IMG/VR virus record: IMGVR_UViG_3300032249_000527
Span: 1-39,067 of that record
Direction: 5' to 3' (one strand)
DNA from: a virus
Length of the DNA: 39,067 nt
Part shown: positions 1 through 24,500 of the stretch, piece after piece
How the letters are laid out: each line of letters begins with the position of its first letter
Position numbering within the stretch: the stretch's first letter is position 1
Notes under the pieces: generated by a model
Database searches by the model: none
What the model was told of the DNA's origin: nothing
Seen by the model: only the letters and a program-made list of their open reading frames with translations
Made by a program: the position numbers and the translations under genes

Positions 1-123
1 ACCACCAGCACCAGCGACCGCCGTGACGCTAGAGGCACGAAAGCCACGTCAGCAGAAGACCGTAGACCTCATGGAGGCGGATCCTGTTTCAGCACGCGAA
101 TCCCTAGGTCTTGTCGGACAAAT
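1..123. repeat. Left copy of the 123-bp direct end repeat (circular overlap)
   Basis: Bases 1-123 are identical to bases 38945-39067 by direct reading. Removing one copy gives a 38,944-bp circle. The repeat lies within an open frame that runs across the junction, so it looks like assembly overlap of a circular or permuted genome. Physical terminal repeats usually lie between genes. Confidence 0.95.
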
Positions 124-3100
124 TCCACTGACGAAGTCCGGGACTCCGACCAAGGCTGGCGCGAATAAGACTCGAGATGTGGGACTCGCATTGTCCCGCC
201 GCACGGTTCGTGCCGGCATGCAAATTGGTCGCAAGGATTATTCGGATCGCGCTGCTAACACACTGGCTTCATCTCTTGCAAGTGAAGTCGAATATCACCT
301 GACCAACTCTGCCGAATCGGGAACTGGCGAAGGGTGGTACAGCACCAACTGGCCGAATGCGGTCTCGCGCTTGTCCGAATATTTCCCAGAACTTGTCGCG
401 GCAAATAAGACGCGAAAGGCACAGGCTTCCGCCAGGCAGTATCGCGCAGTCCTGACGGCCTTCATTGCCATCTACTCGAATGGCGAAAAGGTGTCGATCA
501 ACCTAAACAACGCTATTGCTGCATATGGCAAGTGGCGGTCTGGTAAAGCGCCAAGTTCGATCAACATTGGTTCGCGCCGGGATATGGAGTCCGGGCTTGC
601 TGCAATCGAGGAAGTGCTCTCGCAGTTCGGAATGGAGGGATTTGAATCCCACTTGCGTGAGACGATGACCGTCCGAGAGATCAACAAGGCGCTTCGCGAA
701 AAGGGCGAAGATGCCATGTCCGACTACCCGGCAGACGCCACGCTTCCGCTCGCCGCGTTCTATTTCGGAGCAAAACTTGGCGCGTTCTATGCCAACCTGA
801 TGGGAGACGCCGGCTATCTGACCATGGATCTGTGGTGGTGCAGAACCTTCAACCGTATGCGTGGGCAGTTGAAGACCACCATTTCGCCGCAGCAACTCGA
901 AGCCTATCGAAAGAAGATGGGTCTCCCCTCGACCACGTCTCGCGCGGCGATTTTGAAGCGATCGGACGAAGCGCGGAAGCCGTATGAGGCCCGAAATTTC
1001 CAGTCTCGACTCGAACAGATCATGGGTCGCAAGGCTGGCAAGAATGCCAAGGAACGCGCCAAATTCGAGAAGGATGCAAAAGCCAAACTTGGATCGAAGT
1101 TTGCTGCGCTATTCCGCGAGCATTCACGAGAGAAGGCAAGCAACACGATTGCGAAGAATGCTTTCGACCAAATGGAAGAAGCGCCGTTCGGTGCTGCCGA
1201 CCGGGCATTTATGATCGACGTGGTCCGCCGCGTTCAGGGTATTCTTGAAGAGCGCGGACTGGAACTGACCATTGCCGACATTCAGGCAGCAGCCTGGTAC
1301 TACGAAAAGGATCTCTATGCAAAACTCACAGGCAAGTCAGGCGAGCGAATCGGATATGCAGAAGGAGTCGATGCGTGGATTGCCGAGCGCAAGCGTCACG
1401 GAAATCGTCCCTTCGGACGGCTTGTTCGCGGCATGGCGCAGGGCGTTCAGCAACCTTCCGCCAAAGGAGCGAGCGAAGCAGATGGTCGAGTTGATGAAGG
1501 GCGCTCTGTCCGCCCGGAACAGCGCCGCACCCTCCTCGCCCTCGACGCCCGCCGAGTAAGTCACGAGGCACGTCCGCAACTCCCAGCCGGCTTCTACTCC
1601 GCCCTGACTCGCGGCATTGATTCTCTTGTCGCCAATTCGATGTCTGCTGATGGATGGAAGCAGCAGATCAAAATGCTGACGAATAAGGGGCTCGTGAAGC
1701 AGACTGAAGTCGAATGGTCTGGCATCAATGAGTGGCTAGACACCCAGCCTGGAAAGGTCGAGAAGGCCACGGTCGCAGAATGGCTTGCGGAGAATGGGGT
1801 GTCGGTTCAGGTTCTTCGATTCACGGACAAGGCTCGGAAACCAAAACTCGTAAAACGATATTCCGAATACGTTCGCGAGTCTTACGTAGATGAGGACGGT
1901 GTTGAGCAAGAGGGAACCCTCGAACATGTAACAACACTGTACGACGAGAACACAGACCATCAGTTTGAAATCTTCCATGACGAGGATGCTGGCAACGTCC
2001 GTGTTGTTGTTGACGGAGTTGAGCACCTAGAGGTCAAGGCGAAACTCAATAACCAGCGGTATGAAGACGCCATGATGGTGATCACTGAATTCCTTACAAA
2101 AACTCCGAAGGGATTCGATGGCAGGGCCGGCTTTGAGGAGTACAGAATTCGTGGGGCTGGAAGTATTCAGAAGGCCAACTACAGAGAACTTACTGCCTCA
2201 CTTCCCGATGTCTACGCAAATCGCGCTGTGGTAGAGCCCTATATCTACGAGCAGCATATGCTGTATAAGCGCGATGCAGATATCAATCGCCTATATCACA
2301 TCCGAATGGAAGACCGTCAATCCACTGACGGCAAGAAGATTCTGTTCGTGATCGAGATCCAAAGCGACTGGGCGCAGAACATCAGGCGTGGCGAACGAAT
2401 GGAAGGTGGCGCGCGCGCCGACGTCTACGATCGATTCCGAATTGTCGATATTGACACGAAGCAGGTCGTGTCTCGGCATGCGACTGACAAAGACGCGCAA
2501 GAAGAATTCTCCCGTAAGGGCTACGGCGAGTTGGACAATCTGAAATATCGCGTTGAAGAATTCCCTCCCGATGCTCCGTTTGTCGGAACAACCGATGCCT
2601 GGCTTGCGCTTGCACTCAAGCAGATTCTGCTAGAGGCCAAGGACGGTGGCTATGACATGATTGCATTTGCCAAGGGCAATCAGGTCAACAACATGTTTGG
2701 CAGCGTTATGGCTGGCGCTCGAGGCAATGGAAACCTCAAGTTTTATGACGAGATTTTGCCAGCCGCCATCTCGAAGTTGATGAAGAAGATGGGTGGGCCT
2801 GCGTTGTCAAACGTCCAGATCAAGGGCGCGAAGGGAACGCAGGATGTTCGCATCGAATTCAATGACCCCATTGATGTTGCGGACTTCCTTACAAATGTTG
2901 GGGCAGAAGGTCTGGAAGATCGCGACTATGGAAGAGATGTTGAAGATCGTGATGGCACGCGCGTTATCGCAACACTCGACTATGTGGATGTTGGACTGTT
3001 CAAAGAGTTGGCAGAAGACGTCAACGGGGAGTTGACGGTTGTAAAAACATATCCGAGTGATGCCACCCAACCATCGTTGGAACTGACTCCAAAGTTGCAA

Positions 3101-6100
3101 GAGACATTGCAGGCTCCCATTGCCCTGTTCGCTCGCAAGCCGAAGCGCCAGGAATCCATGGCGTATGAGATTGGACGCCGCTCCGGCCAGGTCGCCGGCG
3201 TGATGCGCGGCCGTAAGGAAGGCATGCGCGAGCAGCAGGATCGCGAGCGCGTGAAGCAGGTATCGGAACGACGGAACATGCGTGCCAAATTCAAGCAACG
3301 GCTTGAAGATGTCATGGAGCGCATTCGACGCGACGCCGATCGAATCGGTGATCTTCGCGACAGGCTCGACGCGGCAGATCGCGCGGCTCGTGCGGACAAG
3401 GTTGAACTCGCGGAGCGCATGGATCAGCAGACCCTGCTGGCATGGTTCTCCGGAATGCAGAAGGGCAATGTCGCCGGCTACAACCAGGCCAAGAAGGACA
3501 TGGAGCAGATTCGACGCGAGGTCGTTTCGATCATCGCCATGCTGCCACAGAGCATGCGCGGCTCCTACAACCTAGCGATTGCGACAATGAAGCAGTCGGA
3601 TGCTGGAGTTCTCAAGATCTCCCAGCAGGTTGTGCGAGACCTGGCTACAGCCGATGCGATTGATGTCGTGAATCAGATCGTCCGAACGCGCAAGCGAGTC
3701 AAGAAGGCTGGCATGCGAAACGAGACGCGAGCATCCATCGATGCGAATCTCGATGCGGCACAGGCAATGCTGACGAGCGCGGTTCGCCGGCTGAAGGAAT
3801 TCACCACGTCCGCAGATCTTGTGCAGCGGACCAATGCAGCCAACGCATTGCTCGAGCAGGCATTCGATGACTATGACATTGAGCGGAGCGAGTACCGCGA
3901 AGGCCGAACGGAGATGGCGGAAGTCGCCGCGCAGGATGCTGCCCAGTTTGCCGACACGATGGATGGGGTGGCTGGCCTCCCCGCCGAGCCGCTTGCAGAG
4001 CGTGCTCCGCAGCGCACGATTCCGCAGCAGGTAGCGATCCGCAACGCCGATGCATACACCCTCATGGAGAAACTTGAGGGATCGCAATCCGGGATCATGG
4101 GAAAGATCTGGGACACCTTGGCAGCAGCCAAGGACACCATGTTCAAGGCCCGCAGAGAGATCGACAGATCGATCGAAGTGGCCCTTCGTGCCGCTGGATA
4201 TACAGGGTATGACGGGTATGCGGCTCGCGCCGCCGGCCTGTATGGTGATGCGTCAGCCGAGACCACGGTTGTCCGCATGGCTGGTCAGGACGTGACCATG
4301 TCCGTGGACAAGATGCTCAACTTGGCGGCGCTTGATCCGGATACGGTTTCGACGTTGACCGACGAGCAGAATCCTGATCAGCCTGGCAGCGGGATCGTGT
4401 TCGATACGAACCGCCAGGCGACGCCGATCAAGTTCACCCAGCAGGAACACGCCGCCTTGGTGGCAAGCCTGACGCCGCAGCAAAAGCAACTGATCGACGA
4501 GATGAAGAACATCCTCGAACAGCGCATCCGACCGGATGTGTTCGAGATTCATTTCCAGCAGCACGGGCGTCAGCCCCCGATTGTCGATAGGTACTTTCCA
4601 CGATATCGCCTCGGAACCGAGGTGCAGGAACTGGGGATCGATTCGGTCAACATGCAGCCGGGGCAGGTGGTACAGACCATGCTGTCCAATGCGGGGTTCC
4701 TGAACAAGCGAGTTCAGTCACGTGCATCGCTGGTCATCAGCGGACTGATTCGAGTGATGGACTCACACGTGGATGAATCGCTTCGCGTCATCCATCTGTC
4801 GCTCGCACTTCGGTACGCGCTGACAGTGATGCGATCTGCTGGCGTGCGCGCAAATATCGAACGGATCCTTGGAGACAAGGGAACAGACCTCATCCGCAAG
4901 ATGCTCTTGAATGGAGTCGGCCTGTCCGGCAAGCCGGTCGGAGACATCGTCGAGAACATCAACGCGAACATCGCGGGTGCAAACCTGACGATCAACCCGA
5001 AGACTTGGCTGCGGCAGTTGGGTGGCATCGCTCGCCTGTACACCGAGATGAGTACTGCGGCCTTCGCGGCCGGGATGGCTTCGGTCACCACCATGACTCC
5101 CGGGACACGGGCGGAGATGGCGCGTCGGGTCGAGGAAGTGAATGGTTACTTCTACGAACGCCATCGTCGCAGCCAGGTCGGTATCTTCGCGAACGTACTT
5201 GGCGATCCTCGCCAAGGCACGGAGCAGTGGTCGAATGCTTTGGCTGCTGTGGGCCGCGCATTCGCTACAGCCGGCAACGATCTCGCGGCTGGGCGATTCG
5301 CCCGTGCGTCTCGAGACGCACGCCAGGGCGCAAGCGCATTCACGCGAATCATCCGAAGTGCGGACATGTTCCTTCGGACCATTGACAGGCAGGTGATGTT
5401 GGCGGCATTCGCTGGATACCGTTCGGAACTGGCGCGCACGAATCCGCGCATGACCAATGACGAGTTGGATATGGCTGCGGCAAAGATGGCCGAGGCCGCA
5501 TTCCGCAGAACACAGAACGTGTCCGATCCGTTGGATGACACGGTTCTTGCAGCCGAAGGAAAGTTTGATAGAGGGATCACGCGCTTCCTGTTCCCATACT
5601 CAAGCGATCCGCTGAAGGGGCACAACCAATTGCGTCGCGCTTTCTCGAGCCGCGACCCAGAGAAGATCGCGAAGGCGACCGCCGGCGTCGGCATGAACAT
5701 GCTGTGGAGTGCCGCCGTCAATCCGGCGTGGGCTGCTGCATTCGCAGGATTGTCTGCCCTGCTGGGCGGAGACGATGACGAGGATGAGAAGGCGATCGCG
5801 GCGATCCTCACCGAGCGCGAAATGAAGCGCATCGTTGCGCGCATCAGTGCAGAAACAGCAGCCCAGGCTTTGGGGTATCCCGGCACGTTCGCGAACGAGG
5901 TGTTGAATGCGGCGCTGCTTGGATTCAGTGGGGCAGCAGAGGGAGTCGGCGAGCCGTTGGTGATTGCATCGATGGGTGAATTGGCACGCAGCCTAGTCGA
6001 GGGCAAGTTCCTTCAGGCGGCTACGACTGCGGCGACCATGTCCGGCATTCCCGTTGCCGCGCCGGCTCGGGCTATTGCGGGCGCGCTGCCGAGCAATGTC

Positions 6101-6238
6101 GCACCAGAGGCAAAGTTGCTGACCTACTACCGCAAACTCCGCAAGGATCGGAAGTTGACGCCTTCGCAGGCGCAGCGGCTACAGGTTCTTGAGGCACGCA
6201 ACAGACTCCGGAAACTTCAAGAGTCCGCTAACGACTAA
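1..6238 (+). CDS. Giant virion-associated polyvalent protein, C-terminal two thirds (continues from 35988 across the sequence ends)
   Basis: This is the 3' part of one 3,064-aa gene that starts at 35988; residue numbers refer to the full protein. A local GTG at 23 gives an apparent 2,071-aa gene, but the frame is open upstream through the circle junction. Residues about 1228-1278 (FYFGAKLGAFYANL...WWCRTFNR) resemble a conserved domain of large phage polyvalent proteins. So do 1533-1565 (GWKQQI...VEWSGINEWL), 1748-1777 (LYHIRMEDRQ...VIEIQSDWAQ) and 1851-1880 (WLALALKQILLEAKDGGYD). Residues about 2040-2290 are highly charged and probably coiled coil. Residues about 2886-2910 are hydrophobic, followed by an acidic GGDDDEDEKA stretch. 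By position after tail and internal proteins, it is probably packaged in the virion and ejected with DNA. Peptidoglycan-degrading or enzymatic activity is not demonstrated. The family resemblance comes from memory of such proteins, so the function is inferred. Confidence 0.85.
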   Translation, partial: PPAPATAVTLEARKPRQQKTVDLMEADPVSARESLGLVGQIPLTKSGTPTKAGANKTRDVGLALSRRTVRAGMQIGRKDYSDRAANTLASSLASEVEYHLTNSAESGTGEGWYSTNWPNAVSRLSEYFPELVAANKTRKAQASARQYRAVLTAFIAIYSNGEKVSINLNNAIAAYGKWRSGKAPSSINIGSRRDMESGLAAIEEVLSQFGMEGFESHLRETMTVREINKALREKGEDAMSDYPADATLPLAAFYFGAKLGAFYANLMGDAGYLTMDLWWCRTFNRMRGQLKTTISPQQLEAYRKKMGLPSTTSRAAILKRSDEARKPYEARNFQSRLEQIMGRKAGKNAKERAKFEKDAKAKLGSKFAALFREHSREKASNTIAKNAFDQMEEAPFGAADRAFMIDVVRRVQGILEERGLELTIADIQAAAWYYEKDLYAKLTGKSGERIGYAEGVDAWIAERKRHGNRPFGRLVRGMAQGVQQPSAKGASEADGRVDEGRSVRPEQRRTLLALDARRVSHEARPQLPAGFYSALTRGIDSLVANSMSADGWKQQIKMLTNKGLVKQTEVEWSGINEWLDTQPGKVEKATVAEWLAENGVSVQVLRFTDKARKPKLVKRYSEYVRESYVDEDGVEQEGTLEHVTTLYDENTDHQFEIFHDEDAGNVRVVVDGVEHLEVKAKLNNQRYEDAMMVITEFLTKTPKGFDGRAGFEEYRIRGAGSIQKANYRELTASLPDVYANRAVVEPYIYEQHMLYKRDADINRLYHIRMEDRQSTDGKKILFVIEIQSDWAQNIRRGERMEGGARADVYDRFRIVDIDTKQVVSRHATDKDAQEEFSRKGYGELDNLKYRVEEFPPDAPFVGTTDAWLALALKQILLEAKDGGYDMIAFAKGNQVNNMFGSVMAGARGNGNLKFYDEILPAAISKLMKKMGGPALSNVQIKGAKGTQDVRIEFNDPIDVADFLTNVGAEGLEDRDYGRDVEDRDGTRVIATLDYVDVGLFKELAEDVNGELTVVKTYPSDATQPSLELTPKLQETLQAPIALFARKPKRQESMAYEIGRRSGQVAGVMRGRKEGMREQQDRERVKQVSERRNMRAKFKQRLEDVMERIRRDADRIGDLRDRLDAADRAARADKVELAERMDQQTLLAWFSGMQKGNVAGYNQAKKDMEQIRREVVSIIAMLPQSMRGSYNLAIATMKQSDAGVLKISQQVVRDLATADAIDVVNQIVRTRKRVKKAGMRNETRASIDANLDAAQAMLTSAVRRLKEFTTSADLVQRTNAANALLEQAFDDYDIERSEYREGRTEMAEVAAQDAAQFADTMDGVAGLPAEPLAERAPQRTIPQQVAIRNADAYTLMEKLEGSQSGIMGKIWDTLAAAKDTMFKARREIDRSIEVALRAAGYTGYDGYAARAAGLYGDASAETTVVRMAGQDVTMSVDKMLNLAALDPDTVSTLTDEQNPDQPGSGIVFDTNRQATPIKFTQQEHAALVASLTPQQKQLIDEMKNILEQRIRPDVFEIHFQQHGRQPPIVDRYFPRYRLGTEVQELGIDSVNMQPGQVVQTMLSNAGFLNKRVQSRASLVISGLIRVMDSHVDESLRVIHLSLALRYALTVMRSAGVRANIERILGDKGTDLIRKMLLNGVGLSGKPVGDIVENINANIAGANLTINPKTWLRQLGGIARLYTEMSTAAFAAGMASVTTMTPGTRAEMARRVEEVNGYFYERHRRSQVGIFANVLGDPRQGTEQWSNALAAVGRAFATAGNDLAAGRFARASRDARQGASAFTRIIRSADMFLRTIDRQVMLAAFAGYRSELARTNPRMTNDELDMAAAKMAEAAFRRTQNVSDPLDDTVLAAEGKFDRGITRFLFPYSSDPLKGHNQLRRAFSSRDPEKIAKATAGVGMNMLWSAAVNPAWAAAFAGLSALLGGDDDEDEKAIAAILTEREMKRIVARISAETAAQALGYPGTFANEVLNAALLGFSGAAEGVGEPLVIASMGELARSLVEGKFLQAATTAATMSGIPVAAPARAIAGALPSNVAPEAKLLTYYRKLRKDRKLTPSQAQRLQVLEARNRLRKLQESAND

Positions 6239-12346: not shown

Positions 12347-13150
12347 TTACTCCGTGCAGTCGCACGGGATTGTGATGTCATTCGGGTCATCCGACTCCGG
12401 GAACAGCCTGCCCTGAATCGTCACTTGGTGCAGGATCGTCGCATACGGTGGACGGTCCTTGCGAAACGTGCCACCGATCTCTTGCTCGAGATCGATCCAC
12501 CATTTCGCTCGCGCTGGCTCCGCCTCCATCACTCGGTCGGTTGCCGCTCTGTTCTTGAGGAAGCACAGATCGCAGTTGCCGAAGGCGCTATCGCCGTTTG
12601 GTAGTTGCAGATCGAACGGTGCGTTGCGCCACCACTCCTTCACCATCTCGGAGTGGACCCCGGCGTCGGCCAATGGCATGGCAATGTCGCGGGACTGGTC
12701 GCCGCGCAGTTTGGCTACGCGCCTCTGCTCGTCGGCCCGAAGCCCTATGACGGTGGTGAACTCGGGGTATCCCCGAGCCTCCATCCACCTCCGCATGGGG
12801 ATGACCTTCAGGTCACTTGTGCAGAACCGCGCGATCGGATTCGGAAGGAACTTGCGCTTCCGAATCAGGGCCGCGAACGGTTCTCCGTTGCGGCTTGCCG
12901 TCGCCGGCGTCACCTCCAAGAATCCACCCAGTTGCCACTCCACCCACGTGATGGGACACCAATCGCGCCCGACCCGTTCGACGAACTCGAGCGTGCGGCC
13001 GTGTTCCTTGCCTGTGTTCGCGAACAGGACGTGCCCGCCATCGGGCAGCGACCCACCCCATGCATCGAGCACGTGCCGCAGCATGTAACCCGAGGTGCGC
13101 CCGCCGCTGAAGGAAACGTAGAACGGTGGTTCGATTCGGTATGGGTTCAC
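12347..13150 (-). CDS. PAPS-reductase-family adenine nucleotide alpha-hydrolase
   Basis: 267 aa. A GTG ending at 13150 overlaps the upstream stop (GTGA). The N-terminal PP-loop SFSGGRTS (residues 13-20) binds ATP or adenylylated substrate. VLFANTGKEH (41-50) and RFCTSDLK with Cys110 are further hallmarks of the PAPS reductase/DndC superfamily. Cys193-x-x-Cys196 (GNCDLCFLKN) and a terminal CDC (263-265) could, with Cys110, hold a metal or iron-sulfur cluster, as in DndC-type proteins. Phage members are often linked to sulfur or nucleotide modification, but no sulfur donor, desulfurase or other modification gene is present here. A tRNA or nucleotide thiolation, DNA modification, or host-takeover role is an inference. 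Superfamily call is strong. Confidence 0.82.
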   Translation of the reverse strand: MNPYRIEPPFYVSFSGGRTSGYMLRHVLDAWGGSLPDGGHVLFANTGKEHGRTLEFVERVGRDWCPITWVEWQLGGFLEVTPATASRNGEPFAALIRKRKFLPNPIARFCTSDLKVIPMRRWMEARGYPEFTTVIGLRADEQRRVAKLRGDQSRDIAMPLADAGVHSEMVKEWWRNAPFDLQLPNGDSAFGNCDLCFLKNRAATDRVMEAEPARAKWWIDLEQEIGGTFRKDRPPYATILHQVTIQGRLFPESDDPNDITIPCDCTE

Positions 13151-13542
13151 GATGGGACCCCTGTCGCTTGCCGCCGCGCGGCGTCGGCTTCCTCGGGATC
13201 GATCAGGCTCTGCTGATAGTGTGTCCACATCCTTGAAGCCGAGTCCACGGCGTGCTTGCCATGCTCCCATCCGGCAAACGGTCCGATGTTCCACACCAGA
13301 CCCTTGGAACAGATCATCCGGACAGTCGCACGCCGACTGTATTCTCCGTTGCGGAATACCATTTGGCTGGTCACGAACAGGCAGCCGCCCGCGACCTTCT
13401 TCGAGACCCGCATCGGAGCGAACTTCTTTCGGTCGAAGAACCCGGGGATGGCCGCGCGAATCGCTGCCATCGAAGCGAACCGTCCAGGCTGCACGCCGGG
13501 ATGGTTCTCAAGGAACTCAAGTAGGGCTAGGTGGTTCGTCAT
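13147..13542 (-). CDS. Hypothetical protein
   Basis: 131 aa from the ATG ending at 13542; this start overlaps the previous stop as ATGA and its own stop overlaps the next start as GTGA, showing tight translational coupling. The N terminus (LALLEFLENHPGVQ) could form helices. The middle contains MAAIRAAIPGFFDRKKF and AGGCLFVTSQMVFRNG, followed by a Gly/Trp-rich stretch (GLVWNIGPFAGWEHG). No motif recognised. It could work with the PAPS-reductase-like protein, which it precedes. Confidence 0.68.
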   Translation of the reverse strand: MTNHLALLEFLENHPGVQPGRFASMAAIRAAIPGFFDRKKFAPMRVSKKVAGGCLFVTSQMVFRNGEYSRRATVRMICSKGLVWNIGPFAGWEHGKHAVDSASRMWTHYQQSLIDPEEADAARRQATGVPS

Positions 13543-13952
13543 CCCATGATCCTCTCGCGCTGGGGGTCAAGGTTGGCGAGCGCCATGATGGACCGAGCCT
13601 CGGCTACCGCCACCGCCCGGATGTACTCGGCCGCCACGTAGGCCATGGCAGCCGCGAGCGCGGCGCGTGGGCTGCGCTTGACCTTGCCGTCCCGCGTGGA
13701 GAAGAACACCGAGATGCCCCCGGCGTGGACGGGACCGCCCACCACCGCGTAGTACCCATCGGATCCGCCCTCAACGTAGTAGCCGCCGCAGCGATCGAGC
13801 GCGCTGCGATCAGCCCCGTCCGGAAACGCAAGGCCGATGGCCGTCCACTTGGACTCGGACCCGTAGCCGTACTCTTGCTCCGTTGCGACAAGCCAATCGA
13901 CCGAAATGCGACCAACGCGCGTCGAGCGCGTTCGAGAAGTGAGCCTTGTCAT
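13539..13952 (-). CDS. Hypothetical protein
   Basis: 137 aa from the ATG ending at 13952, with AAAGG upstream. It opens with Arg/Thr-rich residues. A Tyr/Gly-rich middle follows (GGYYVEGGSDGYYAVVGG) and a long Ala-rich helix closes it (AALAAAMAYVAAEYIRAVAV). No motif recognised; the Ala-rich C-terminal helix is not obviously a membrane segment. It is preceded by one of the four hairpin leaders of this operon and coupled to the following gene. Confidence 0.65.
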   Translation of the reverse strand: MTRLTSRTRSTRVGRISVDWLVATEQEYGYGSESKWTAIGLAFPDGADRSALDRCGGYYVEGGSDGYYAVVGGPVHAGGISVFFSTRDGKVKRSPRAALAAAMAYVAAEYIRAVAVAEARSIMALANLDPQRERIMG

Positions 13953-13970
13953 GTGTGACCTTTCTCTAGG

Positions 13971-14024
13971 ATTCAGAACAGCCCGCACGATGCGGGGGCA
14001 GGGCGGCCCCGGGATGGAGCCGCC
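13971..14024 (-). promoter_or_regulatory. Hairpin leader, copy B
   Basis: Between the clamp-like gene and the 13952 start. CCCGCA (13982-13987)/TGCGGG (13991-13996) forms a 6-bp stem with a 3-nt loop. GGCGGC (14002-14007)/GCCGCC (14019-14024) forms a second stem. In the sense of the gene, the first hairpin is followed by GTTCTGAATCC and AAAGG, and ends 30 nt before the start. Confidence 0.55.
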
Positions 14025-14042
14025 GAGCCCACCACCGTGGCG

Positions 14043-14699
14043 TCAACCGTTGAACCGCTTGCCCATGGGGAACGCGCCCTTGTAGATGCCCTCGGCTCGC
14101 TCGCGCGAGCCCTCGTCGCCGCAGAGCATCAGCAGCCCGACGCCGTTCGGACCGACCACGGTTGCGGGCTTGTGATCCCCGACCGGGAACATGATCGTAA
14201 CCACCCCATCCTTGCCGATGGCCTCTGCCATCTTCGCGAGGAGCCGGGCGTTCAGGGTGATCGACTTGTTCGAGGGGTCGAACACGTGCGCCGGGTTGGC
14301 CCACAGGTCGTCGGTGGGCGGGAAGGCCACGCCGTCCTCCGGCAGGTCCTGCACTTCGGCGTTGCCCTTGAGGGTCGGGCGGGTCGCCTTGCCGTCGGCG
14401 ATGGTCACGGCGAGCGGAACTTTCTTGAACCCCAGTGGCGCGCGCTTCACCATCGAGGGGTCGAGGTAGTGCTTCGCGCCGACCTGGCCGTCGGTCGCGT
14501 CGGCGAACGCCCGGGTGATGCAGCGCCCGTCGGTCGTCGTGACGTAGGCGCGCCCGCCGCCGCAGCCGAAGGTGACCTCGGCGAGGTTCATGGCGGTGAA
14601 CTGCCGATTCTCGCCGGGCTCGGCAGCGCAGGCTGCGAGGTTGCGGTCGGTCGGGATCGTGATGCGAGCGGGACGGGTAGCGGTTGCGATCTCGGTCAT
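14043..14699 (-). CDS. Putative DNA sliding-clamp-like protein
   Basis: 218 aa from the ATG ending at 14699. AATCGGAG upstream is the ribosome site. Two segments recall the DNA polymerase III beta clamp. Near residue 50, GGGRAYVTTTDGRCITRAFA resembles the clamp pattern of a strand followed by ATDG. Near 160-205, NARLLAKMAEAIGKDG, VVTIMFPVGDHKPATVV and GLLMLC resemble the clamp C-terminal domain (f....L..a......v.i......p......). It is shorter than a bacterial clamp (about 370 aa), which would suit a two-domain phage clamp. No polymerase gene was found, so it would have to act with the host enzyme. The alternative is an unknown beta-rich protein; confidence in the clamp call is only moderate. 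Confidence 0.6.
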   Translation of the reverse strand: MTEIATATRPARITIPTDRNLAACAAEPGENRQFTAMNLAEVTFGCGGGRAYVTTTDGRCITRAFADATDGQVGAKHYLDPSMVKRAPLGFKKVPLAVTIADGKATRPTLKGNAEVQDLPEDGVAFPPTDDLWANPAHVFDPSNKSITLNARLLAKMAEAIGKDGVVTIMFPVGDHKPATVVGPNGVGLLMLCGDEGSRERAEGIYKGAFPMGKRFNG

Positions 14700-14739
14700 G
14701 GTGTGCTCCGATTCTGCCCCTGTGGGGCTTGGGTTGGTT

Positions 14740-14781
14740 CCTACACGACGGTGCAGGCCCTCCTCCCCCATGTAGGGGGAG
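14740..14781 (-). promoter_or_regulatory. Hairpin leader, copy C
   Basis: CCTACAC (14740-14746)/GTGCAGG (14751-14757) with one mismatch (a G-U pair in the minus-strand RNA), and CTCCCCC (14763-14769)/GGGGGAG (14775-14781). Located 41 nt before the clamp-like start. It shares GAATCGGAG with copy A as the ribosome-site context. A further CCCC/GGGG hairpin lies between hairpin and start. Confidence 0.55.
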
Positions 14782-14795
14782 TCGGGCTCGTGCCG

Positions 14796-15170
14796 TCAGG
14801 CTTCGTCGCGCTTGCGGTTCAGGAAGGCGTCCATGCGCTCGCGCGCGGACTTGGCATCCTCATGGCGCTTGGCGTCGGCCTCGCGCCACGCCTTCATCCC
14901 GTCGAGCATGGCGTGCATCCGGTTGTACAAGTCGCGCTTGCTCACGAACCCGCACCCGAACACGTGGGAGCACCCGCCCGACTCGTTCACGATTCGTTCG
15001 AGGGTCCACCCGCCGTAGGCCCCTTGCAGGTAGCAGCAGCCCACGCGCTTCTCCGGCGGCAGGTCGTTAGGGTTGTCTGTGGTGTAGCCGACCAACTCGC
15101 CGTTGATCCGCCGGACCGCGTCTTCGAGGTGGTACTTGGTGATGCGGTTGCGACTAGATGAGAGGGACAT
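14796..15170 (-). CDS. Hypothetical protein
   Basis: 124 aa from the ATG ending at 15170, with CGGAG 6 nt upstream. The N-terminal half contains several Cys and Gly residues (GCCYLQGAYGGW and CSHVFGCGFVSKRDL); the pattern Cys44-Cys45...Cys67...Cys73 could bind metal, but the spacing matches nothing I recognise. The C-terminal 45 residues are a charged helix (AWREADAKRHEDAK), probably coiled coil. Second gene of the minus-strand operon. Confidence 0.7.
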   Translation of the reverse strand: MSLSSSRNRITKYHLEDAVRRINGELVGYTTDNPNDLPPEKRVGCCYLQGAYGGWTLERIVNESGGCSHVFGCGFVSKRDLYNRMHAMLDGMKAWREADAKRHEDAKSARERMDAFLNRKRDEA

Positions 15171-15180
15171 AGAGACTCCG

Positions 15181-15236
15181 ATTCAGGGGTTCAGAACGTC
15201 CTGCACGGTGCAGGGCAGCCTCCCCCGAAGGGGAGG
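15181..15236 (-). promoter_or_regulatory. Hairpin leader, copy A
   Basis: CCTGCA (15200-15205)/TGCAGG (15209-15214) with a 3-nt loop and CCTCCCC (15219-15225)/GGGGAGG (15230-15236) with a TTCG loop on the minus strand. In the gene's sense the first hairpin is followed by ACGTTCTGAACCCCTGAAT and CGGAG, ending 30 nt before the start at 15170. Confidence 0.6.
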
Positions 15237-15256
15237 GAGCCGAGCGTCGTGCGGGG

Positions 15257-15859
15257 TCAGTCGGTCCACCACGAGGGGAAGAAAAAGTTGCCCGAGCCGG
15301 GGTGGCTCGCCTTGATAGACGTCTCCAACTTGGACTTGCTGCGGGGGGCGTCCAACGCGCCCAAGTTCGGGGTCCACGACCGCCACTCGTCACCGACCCG
15401 GAACACCACCGACCCCCTCTTCACGCGGCTGCTGATCCACCTGCGGATGCTCGCCTCTTCGCGCTTGTCCTCGATGGCCTTCAACTTGGCGGCGGCGGCG
15501 TCATCGAGCCACGCTTCGAGGTCGAACCGCATCCCCATGTTGGTCTGATCGCCACCGAGGCACGTGGCCCATTGATCCTTGACGCGCTTCAGCATCTCGA
15601 ACTTGCCCGTCTTCGGACACACGAACGTGTTCCCACCGCAGCCGTCATTCTTGGCGTGAGCGATCGCCACCTTGCCGAACTTGACGGTGCAGGTGAAGGC
15701 GACCGTCTCCTCGCTCATGGAGGGGACCACCTTCATGTTGGTGATGCTCAAGCACGCGAGCACGCCTCGGACGGCTTCGCGATCGCGACGCATCTGCACG
15801 TCGATGTCGCGGCTGATGCTGTCCTGAATCGAATCGAGACCGGGGATGGAGTCGGACAT
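15257..15859 (-). CDS. Hypothetical protein, first gene of the minus-strand operon
   Basis: 200 aa from the ATG ending at 15859, with CAGGAG upstream. The N-terminal 30 residues are helical. Then comes a beta-type segment (EETVAFTCTVKFGKVAIAH) with Cys, GCGG and CPKTG. This hints at a small metal-binding or Gly-rich core. A helical region (AAAAKLKAIEDKREEASIRR) and a C-terminal aromatic tail (GNFFFPSWWTD) complete it. No family recognised. As the promoter-proximal gene of the leftward operon, it is probably expressed earliest and most strongly, as is typical for host-takeover or ssDNA-binding proteins. That is context only. Confidence 0.72.
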   Translation of the reverse strand: MSDSIPGLDSIQDSISRDIDVQMRRDREAVRGVLACLSITNMKVVPSMSEETVAFTCTVKFGKVAIAHAKNDGCGGNTFVCPKTGKFEMLKRVKDQWATCLGGDQTNMGMRFDLEAWLDDAAAAKLKAIEDKREEASIRRWISSRVKRGSVVFRVGDEWRSWTPNLGALDAPRSKSKLETSIKASHPGSGNFFFPSWWTD

Positions 15860-15889
15860 TGGAGTGTCTCCTGTTCAAGGGGTGAGAAT

Positions 15890-15906
15890 GTCGGCACGTT
15901 GCCGAC
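15890..15906 (-). promoter_or_regulatory. Hairpin leader, copy D (5' end of the minus-strand transcript)
   Basis: GTCGGCA (15890-15896)/TGCCGAC (15900-15906), 3-nt loop. It is followed in the gene's sense by ATTCTCACCCCTTGAA and CAGGAG, ending 30 nt before the start at 15859. The predicted transcription start falls at about 15906, so the RNA may begin with this hairpin. Confidence 0.6.
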
Positions 15907-15912
15907 CCGTAC

Positions 15913-15941
15913 AGTATGACACAGGCATCGGCAATCCGCAA
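15913..15941 (-). promoter_or_regulatory. Candidate sigma-70 promoter for the minus-strand operon
   Basis: On the minus strand: -35 TTGCGG (complement of 15936-15941), 17-nt spacer, -10 CATACT (complement of 15913-15918). The -10 box matches the consensus at 4 of 6 positions. The upstream TTTCGA sites lie directly behind the -35 box, well placed for activation or repression. Confidence 0.5.
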
Positions 15942-23897: not shown

Positions 23898-23926
23898 GGG
23901 GGCGGTCGGTAACCCCGGCCGCCCCC
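23898..23926 (+). terminator. Hairpin after the major capsid gene
   Basis: GGGGGCGGTCGG (23898-23909) pairs with CCGGCCGCCCCC (23915-23926) across a 5-nt loop with one G-T pair; it starts 8 nt after the stop. There is no T tract. It probably terminates in part or stabilises capsid mRNA. Confidence 0.65.
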
Positions 23927-23951
23927 ATCACCACACAGAAAGGAATCAAAC

Positions 23952-24500
23952 ATGATTCTCGCTCCAACCTCTGGTCCGATCGGCATTTGGCCGCACGGAC
24001 ACGTCGCACGAATGATCAACCGCTCCGGCGGCGCTCTTGTCCTCGGCGATGTCGTGATCACTTCGTTCAACCACACCAGCGCCGCATATAGCGCGGCTCC
24101 GGAAAATGATGCGGCACTTCGACTCTCTCCATTCGCGTGCGTCAAGAAGGCTGATGGAGATGCTGCTGCTACATCCGGCAATGGCGCGCACTCGCAGGCC
24201 GGATACATCGGCGTCGTGGTTGGTCTCGGTAACTTCACCGGCGCTGATAGCACCGAGGTCGATGTGCAGTTTGGCGGCATTTGTGCTGCGACTGTGTTCG
24301 CAAACACAAACAACGTCGTTCTCGGCTCAAAGTTGTTCTTGAGCGATACGGCCGGTCGGCTCGGCAACGAGGGCGACTCGGCAAATCCCGACACGACCGT
24401 CGCGATTTCTCTCGGTTCCGTGACTGCCGCTGCAAGCGGAACGATCAACGTTCTGCTGTTCAACGGCCCGATCGACGGCACGGCGACTGCCCTGACGTGA
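23952..24500 (+). CDS. Putative capsid decoration/structural protein
   Basis: 182 aa from the ATG at 23952, with AAAGGA upstream. It is Gly/Ala/Thr/Val-rich and beta-type throughout (GGALVLGDVVITSFNHTSA, then AGYIGVVVGLGNFTG). The C-terminal part (GSKLFLSDTAGRLGNEGD and GSVTAAASGTINVLLF) recalls DUF2190-like head decoration or minor structural proteins, which have a small beta-barrel. It follows the capsid gene after a hairpin and is itself followed by another. Decoration proteins bind the shell; this role is inferred from position and fold type. Confidence 0.6.
   Translation: MILAPTSGPIGIWPHGHVARMINRSGGALVLGDVVITSFNHTSAAYSAAPENDAALRLSPFACVKKADGDAAATSGNGAHSQAGYIGVVVGLGNFTGADSTEVDVQFGGICAATVFANTNNVVLGSKLFLSDTAGRLGNEGDSANPDTTVAISLGSVTAAASGTINVLLFNGPIDGTATALT

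Follow-up and report, generated by a model that had tools for sequence, protein, structure and literature searches.

Repeated hairpin leaders at gene boundaries in the variable small-gene block of uncultured freshwater-type phages

Regions of small genes in phage genomes turn over fast, and how a newly arrived gene is properly expressed from the outset is an open question. The DNA studied here is a virus record of 39,067 nucleotides (nt), IMG/VR IMGVR_UViG_3300032249_000527 (the window), in which an array of small minus-strand genes lies divergent from the small and large terminase genes. An identical stretch of 123 bases stands at the two ends of the window, so that the genome is circular and about 38.9 kb long. 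A sequence-only reading of this DNA had pointed to four array genes (starts at 15859, 15170, 14699 and 13952), each with a hairpin before it, and had suggested selection on RNA structure. We found the same four genes and hairpins again, and the pattern extends further than that reading had it. In these uncultured freshwater-type phages, one and the same folded leader, mostly a pair of abutting hairpins, precedes most genes of the variable small-gene block, and a gene exchanged into the block seems to come with an RNA spacer already in place that sets its expression. The existence of this leader family is strongly supported, and its mechanism is what we infer below.

A folded leader in the small-gene array

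Relatives of the window were collected with the terminase protein, which gave 28 loci at 54–100% identity, and a five-sequence profile added about 50 more. The sample consists mostly of metagenomic contigs, whose loci carry L numbers here. A similar small-gene block divergent from the terminase is present in most relatives with enough sequence. Genes were called in-house by codon usage and ribosome sites, leaders of at least 45–60 nt were kept, and near-duplicates were removed; the hairpin scores are the analyst's own setting. Hairpins that score at least 6 and end 26–33 nt before the start codon occur in 38 of 116 array leaders and 1.0 times in dinucleotide shuffles, a control in which kinship is corrected solely by an 85% duplicate filter. 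A second peak of hairpin ends, 42–57 nt before array starts, corresponds to an upstream hairpin that we call hairpin 1; the hairpin nearer to the gene is hairpin 2. Both peaks are absent from the leaders of late genes on the same contigs.

Both hairpins are present in 60 of 104 non-redundant leaders. Hairpin 1 is built from a lower stem and a GC-rich upper stem of 7–10 base pairs (bp), separated by a small internal loop (mostly 2x2, often UC/CU), and it has a UNCG or GNRA loop in 28 of 60 cases, against 3 of 104 for hairpin 2. Its lower stem reaches at least 3 bp in 39 of 50 elements, where 11 would be expected, and extends to hairpin 2, whose first base it may share. Hairpin 2 abuts hairpin 1, has a stem of 6–9 bp and ends about 29 nt before the ATG. 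The loop of hairpin 2 fits NYGU in 43 of 60 copies, a count that includes a triloop plus its 3' closing U; hairpin 1 does so in 2 of 60, and hairpins from shuffled leaders in 1.7%. Downstream lie a G-poor stretch, then GGAG, then the ATG. No U-tract follows hairpin 2 (the next 8 nt hold a mean of 1.5 T, and five or more T in 1 of 104 leaders), and a scan of the array region for intrinsic terminators, meaning a GC-rich stem with a U-tract, found none.

The window holds two-hairpin elements in copies B, C and D, while copy A, beside the likely promoter, is the second hairpin alone. The leaders and the genes behind them are as follows, with gene lengths in amino acids (aa).

15913–15941, minus strand: putative array promoter, TTGCGG, 17 nt, CATACT; predicted transcription start (+1) at 15906, the first base of hairpin A
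15890–15906, minus strand: copy A, hairpin 2 type only, GTCGGCA-ACG-TGCCGAC, 30 nt before the gene A ATG
15257–15859, minus strand: gene A, 200 aa, with a 93% identical homologue in L001/L004
15213–15241, minus strand: copy B, hairpin 1, GGC-UC-CCUCCCC[UUCG]GGGGAGG-CU-GCC
15200–15214, minus strand: copy B, hairpin 2, CCTGCA-CCG-TGCAGG, 29 nt before the gene B ATG
14796–15170, minus strand: gene B, 124 aa, with a weak PHROGs match to phrog_15017
14757–14787, minus strand: copy C, hairpin 1, GCCC-GA-CUCCCCC[UACAU]GGGGGAG-GA-GGGC
14740–14757, minus strand: copy C, hairpin 2, divergent, CCTGCAC-CGTC-GTGTAGG with one G-U pair, 40 nt before the gene C ATG
14043–14699, minus strand: gene C, 218 aa, with a 90% identical homologue in L002/L005
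13996–14030, minus strand: copy D, hairpin 1, GGGC-UC-GGCGGCUCC...GGGGCCGCC-CU-GCCC
13982–13996, minus strand: copy D, hairpin 2, CCCGCA-TCG-TGCGGG, 29 nt before the gene D ATG
13539–13952, minus strand: gene D, 137 aa, the final leader-bearing gene; the following gene overlaps its stop codon

Genes A–D matched no family in Pfam, and in PHROGs gene B alone gave its weak match. Among viral contigs, a single close relative turned up for gene A and another for gene C. Phage records showed no DNA-level similarity to the window between 12 and 18 kb. With hairpin-to-start distances of 30, 29, 40 and 29 nt, the hairpins stand where the sequence-only reading had placed them. Copies A, B and D have (A/G)TTCT(G/C)A after the hairpin, as that reading had said. 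It had assigned a common ribosome-site sequence to A and C, where GAATCGGAG is in fact common to B and C, and a second GC-rich hairpin to A, B and C, where it is in fact found in B, C and D, with A lying instead behind the likely promoter. Two features had escaped it: the elements lie at the borders of gene cassettes, and B–D each form a single composite two-hairpin structure. Copy C has an additional small hairpin close to the ribosome site. Orthologues of copy A read GTCGGCA-GCG-TGCCGAC in L004 and GTCGGCG-ACG-TGCCGAC in L008.

Taken singly, the short motifs are not enriched in the window: the loop motif GCANCGTGC is found 3 times against 4.2 expected, and the tail GTTCTGAAYCC 23 times against 17.4 expected. 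The significance of the leaders must therefore rest on position, structure and relatives. We built a covariance model, R1, from 13 elements of relatives, with the window's own group left out. Its top three matches in the 39-kb window are copy B (15200–15240, E = 1.4e-13), copy D (13982–14028, E = 3.7e-5) and copy C (14740–14785, E = 0.0063), the E-values being rough after a short calibration. The full two-hairpin element is present in the window far beyond chance. In 66 other loci R1 made 130 matches, a few of them on the opposite strand because the hairpins are nearly symmetric. Of 65 matches, 52 have a called start 15–45 nt downstream, and the matches usually begin about 10–18 nt past the upstream stop codon. 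What recurs across dozens of contigs is the boundary itself, a standard RNA part at fixed distances from the preceding stop and the following start.

Isolated phages yielded no convincing similar leader. Among bacterial genome contigs, a search with the large terminase protein (TerL) returned no relative, and the hairpin pattern returned 97 single matches, none of them multi-copy and none with a strong R1 match (the best, among sites already selected for hairpin 2, had E = 1.8e-4 over 0.6 Mb), so that no host or prophage was found. A pattern match in L003, inside a head gene, was set aside as chance.

Paired changes, promoters and cassette boundaries

Leaders of orthologous genes, chosen by the orthology of the genes and not by pairing, show compensating changes. 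Between L029 and L031, GCGCGTCA becomes GCTCGTCA (G-C to T-A); between L055 and L063, CCTGCA becomes CCTACA (G-C to A-T); and between L018 and L048, CGCACC becomes CGCGCC (A-T to G-C), each time with the 3' side matching. The DUF932 gene has a hairpin in the expected zone in 13 of 16 distinct leaders, with several unrelated stems, and the three leaders without one include that of L013, where a hairpin lies farther upstream. Six pairs show changes on both sides in an alignment of elements picked for perfect stems, a choice that makes the percentage of paired cells partly circular; the evidential weight lies on the position, ortholog, lower-stem and held-out tests. Three lines of evidence support the suggested selection on RNA structure: the relatives, the compensating substitutions between orthologous leaders, and the covariance model trained without the window's group. 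L027 (147–3366) carries a leader that is similar in kind yet distinct, with one hairpin per junction (of the CCCCCC-NNNN-GGGGGG type) and then GCTGATC-TGACCGTTC.

Behind promoters, hairpin 1 is absent and hairpin 2 stands alone. With a clear promoter taken as p about 0.1 or less, hairpin 2 starts 6–8 nt after the -10 box in L029, L067 (three promoters), L074, L083, L101 and L103 (twice); the exceptions are L018 (14 nt), L049, L072 and L093, where the promoter scan may have chosen another site. Transcription from sigma-70 promoters begins about 7 nt downstream of the -10 box, and hairpin 2 is therefore the predicted 5' terminus. Copy A of the window likewise has a 6-nt spacing, behind a weak promoter. 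The window between 13900 and 16020 contains no sigma-70-type promoter at strict consensus, and the host may use other promoter types; because the strict scan leaves promoter A unlisted, it was predicted by comparison. The close relative L008 has promoter hexamers and a 6-nt spacing identical to those of the window, and other relatives have much stronger promoters at the same spacing. In L067 (679–4940), the leader occurs promoter by promoter: several array genes each follow a strong promoter that serves them alone, with GTCGGC-AACGTC-GCCGAC or a close variant 6 nt past its -10 box.

The leader also serves as a cassette boundary. L004 and L005 have flanks about 96–97% identical to the window and different array genes, and the boundaries fall at the leaders. 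Across the relatives, non-homologous proteins stand behind leaders of at least 90% identity in 132 pairs (the pairs are not independent events), and homologous proteins also occur behind different leaders. Since the leader sequence marks cassette boundaries, it can help to find host-takeover genes.

Candidate roles of the leader

The reading that we put first, and on which our own judgement is evenly divided, is that of a modular repeated RNA leader that would protect mRNA ends, insulate each ribosome-binding site and double as a cassette crossover point. Hairpin 2 at an mRNA 5' end would block 5'-end-dependent decay, as in ompA. Between genes, hairpin 1 would protect the 3' end of the upstream message, and the stacked hairpins would stop upstream sequence from folding over the next ribosome site. 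We propose that any gene dropped into the array would then be expressed alike, its ribosome site being insulated, and that shared leader sequence would supply the crossover points that explain cassette turnover. The conserved loop may in addition be read by some factor. In E. coli, a 5' hairpin impedes RppH and stabilises bla mRNA (PMC3997798). Stabilisation of mRNA 5' ends had been among the roles named by the sequence-only reading, and it would suit the promoter-proximal copies, where hairpin 2 lies at the predicted +1, 6–8 nt after the -10 box. If the leader does insulate expression, it would be a natural counterpart of engineered insulators such as RiboJ.

Several points weigh against protection and insulation. 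Many array junctions have a short spacer or no element, and the L027 group has a single hairpin. Promoter A is weak by consensus. Minimum-energy folds of copies B and D favour a partly different pairing, the folding energy of two promoter-proximal leaders is not unusual (z about -0.5), and a wobble test for an RNA role, which set G-U against A-C in otherwise perfect stems, gave no clear lean (11 against 8). Protection of the ompA type presumes RppH and RNase E, which the phages' host perhaps does not have. The conserved NYGU loop would be superfluous in a pure stabiliser or insulator; protection and insulation leave it unexplained, which points to a protein or RNA that reads it.

Such a reader is the basis of the rival that survives best, although we regard it as doubtful: hairpin 2 would be the site of a dedicated phage or host RNA-binding protein that reads NYGU and switches the translation or stability of the whole early set. 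NYGU is kept in the 43 of 60 tandem copies and in many promoter-proximal ones despite varying stems, the loops of hairpin 1 differ, and the stems tend to share one sequence inside a genome and to differ from one phage group to the next. Against this, 6-nt loops (AACGTC, AATGCC) occupy the same place in L067, L074 and L083, the loop of copy C in the window differs, and the proposal comes without a candidate protein. A broader version, which we hold just as tentatively, makes the NYGU hairpin the tag by which an RNA-binding factor would control a whole regulon of exchangeable phage genes. A gene recombining behind such a hairpin would gain the same post-transcriptional control, and the tag and its factor would be a new system of RNA element and protein with plug-and-play cassettes. 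The conserved loop makes a binding factor directly testable.

It is unlikely that the leaders are processing sites, at which an endonuclease would cut between hairpins 1 and 2 and release single-gene mRNAs with a hairpin at both the 3' and the 5' end, as RNase III does on T7 early RNA. Such cutting would account for hairpin 1 tracking gene ends and hairpin 2 gene starts, and for promoter-proximal copies that consist of hairpin 2 alone at the predicted 5' end. However, the gap between the hairpins is at most 4–5 nt, is not A/U-rich and is largely paired in the lower stem; pairing of the hairpin 1 lower stem can extend in internal copies as far as hairpin 2, so that an enzyme would find little single-stranded RNA to cut. 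The stems are also shorter than those of typical RNase III sites.

Phage HK022 has put sites, two neighbouring stem-loops near its early promoters. A cis-acting antitermination RNA of this kind, or like lambda nut, would modify or load the polymerase for read-through of the array; the leader shares the two stem-loops and is transcribed in the early direction. We consider it very unlikely all the same, as put needs both hairpins and the promoters here have hairpin 2 only, one site per operon suffices and here there are 3–7, the region has no U-tract terminator, and no Rfam family is reached at the gathering score. Less likely again are inverted repeats that act as DNA, either as repressor operators or as cassette recombination sites, without any role in RNA. 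Hairpin A does span the predicted +1 to +17, the usual place of an operator, and cassette boundaries coincide with the elements. Yet the stems vary within the window (GTCGGCA, CCTGCA, CCCGCA), unlike the sites of a single DNA-binding protein, no promoter can be recognised at the internal copies, a site-specific recombinase was not identified next to the array, and the fixed distances to stop and start together with the UNCG/GNRA and NYGU loops fit RNA better.

Two further candidates were rejected. N4-type virion RNA polymerase promoters, which are DNA hairpins, came to mind because of the giant protein described below, and were dropped because that protein has no Pfam, PHROG or PDB match, the loop lengths vary and good sigma-70 promoters precede several promoter-proximal copies. 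Integron attC sites, suggested by the cassette array, found no backing: no core sites were seen by eye and no integrase was identified.

Known elements and neighbouring features

The leader element has no Rfam family: Rfam 15 gave no match in the window at the gathering score and nothing relevant in seven relatives at permissive E-values. Whalefall-1 RNA has two stem-loops. It is the nearest Rfam match to copy B (RF01762; 17.4 bits against a gathering score of 37, E = 0.31), and it had no match in the relatives.

The nearest known kinds are the PeSL cassettes of T4, the SAS and ESAS repeats of mycobacteriophages and ompA-type 5' stem-loops. PeSL cassettes of T4-type phages, reportedly described by Arbiol and colleagues in 2010 (doi 10.1093/gbe/evq006, as cited in PMC4177764), may mediate the shuffling of modules. 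Like the leaders, they are intergenic stem-loop cassettes repeated in a variable region, and here too exchange takes place at the leaders between close relatives. They differ in that each PeSL has an early promoter, whereas copies B–D of the window show none, and in that the leader joins two abutting hairpins with loops of separate classes at a constant distance from the start codon. For shuffling, PeSLs are the best analogue. Phage T4 also has very stable CUUCGG (UNCG) intercistronic hairpins just after stop codons, which resemble hairpin 1 but have no NYGU hairpin directly downstream.

In cluster K mycobacteriophages, SAS and ESAS repeats, whose function is unknown, lie at the translation starts of a subset of non-structural genes, and the ESAS contains an upstream inverted repeat of 17 bp with a spacer of 4–13 bp and a conserved sequence (PMC3203893). 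The likeness lies in repeats tied to the starts of such a subset, with the inverted repeat of the ESAS upstream. SAS is however a conserved 13-bp sequence, GGGATAGGAGCCC, whereas structure and loop are conserved here; allowing up to 3 mismatches, GGGATAGGAGCCC matched the window 5 times against 9.9 expected, never at the array genes. Cluster O mycobacteriophages have 17-bp dyad repeats with 7-bp inverted arms and a 3-nt centre, many of them intergenic, and recombination between copies leads to gene gain and loss (PMC4351075). Those repeats differ in their invariant arms, their AAA/TTT centre, their location inside genes in one third of cases and their lack of a fixed distance to the start. The 5'-terminal stem-loops of ompA and papA mRNA (Emory 1992; Bouvet and Belasco 1992; reviewed in PMC3997798) resemble the leader in placing a hairpin at or near an mRNA 5' end, predicted in our case, upstream of an unstructured ribosome site. 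They are single copies in host genes, whereas the leaders are operon-wide repeats joined to hairpin 1 between genes.

Elsewhere in the window, a strong hairpin at 23899–23927 (GGGGGCGGTCGG...CCGGCCGCCCCC) ends 25 nt before the late gene at 23952. Strong hairpins placed in the same way before late genes, and unrelated in sequence, are present in L014, L015 and L030. Downstream of the array, at 12347–13150, lies a PAPS reductase-like gene that is conserved in other virus contigs. A single open frame runs across the contig ends (35988–39067 plus 122–6238) and encodes the giant protein of about 3,060 aa, for which searches of Pfam, PHROG and PDB returned no match. It has weak similarity to genes of 8–10 kb in Limnohabitans phage DC33 and two Manatee Spring phages. 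The DC33 record (L109, PQ492659.1) is 39 kb long with a gene of 9.4 kb, and its Inoviridae label looks wrong for such a genome.

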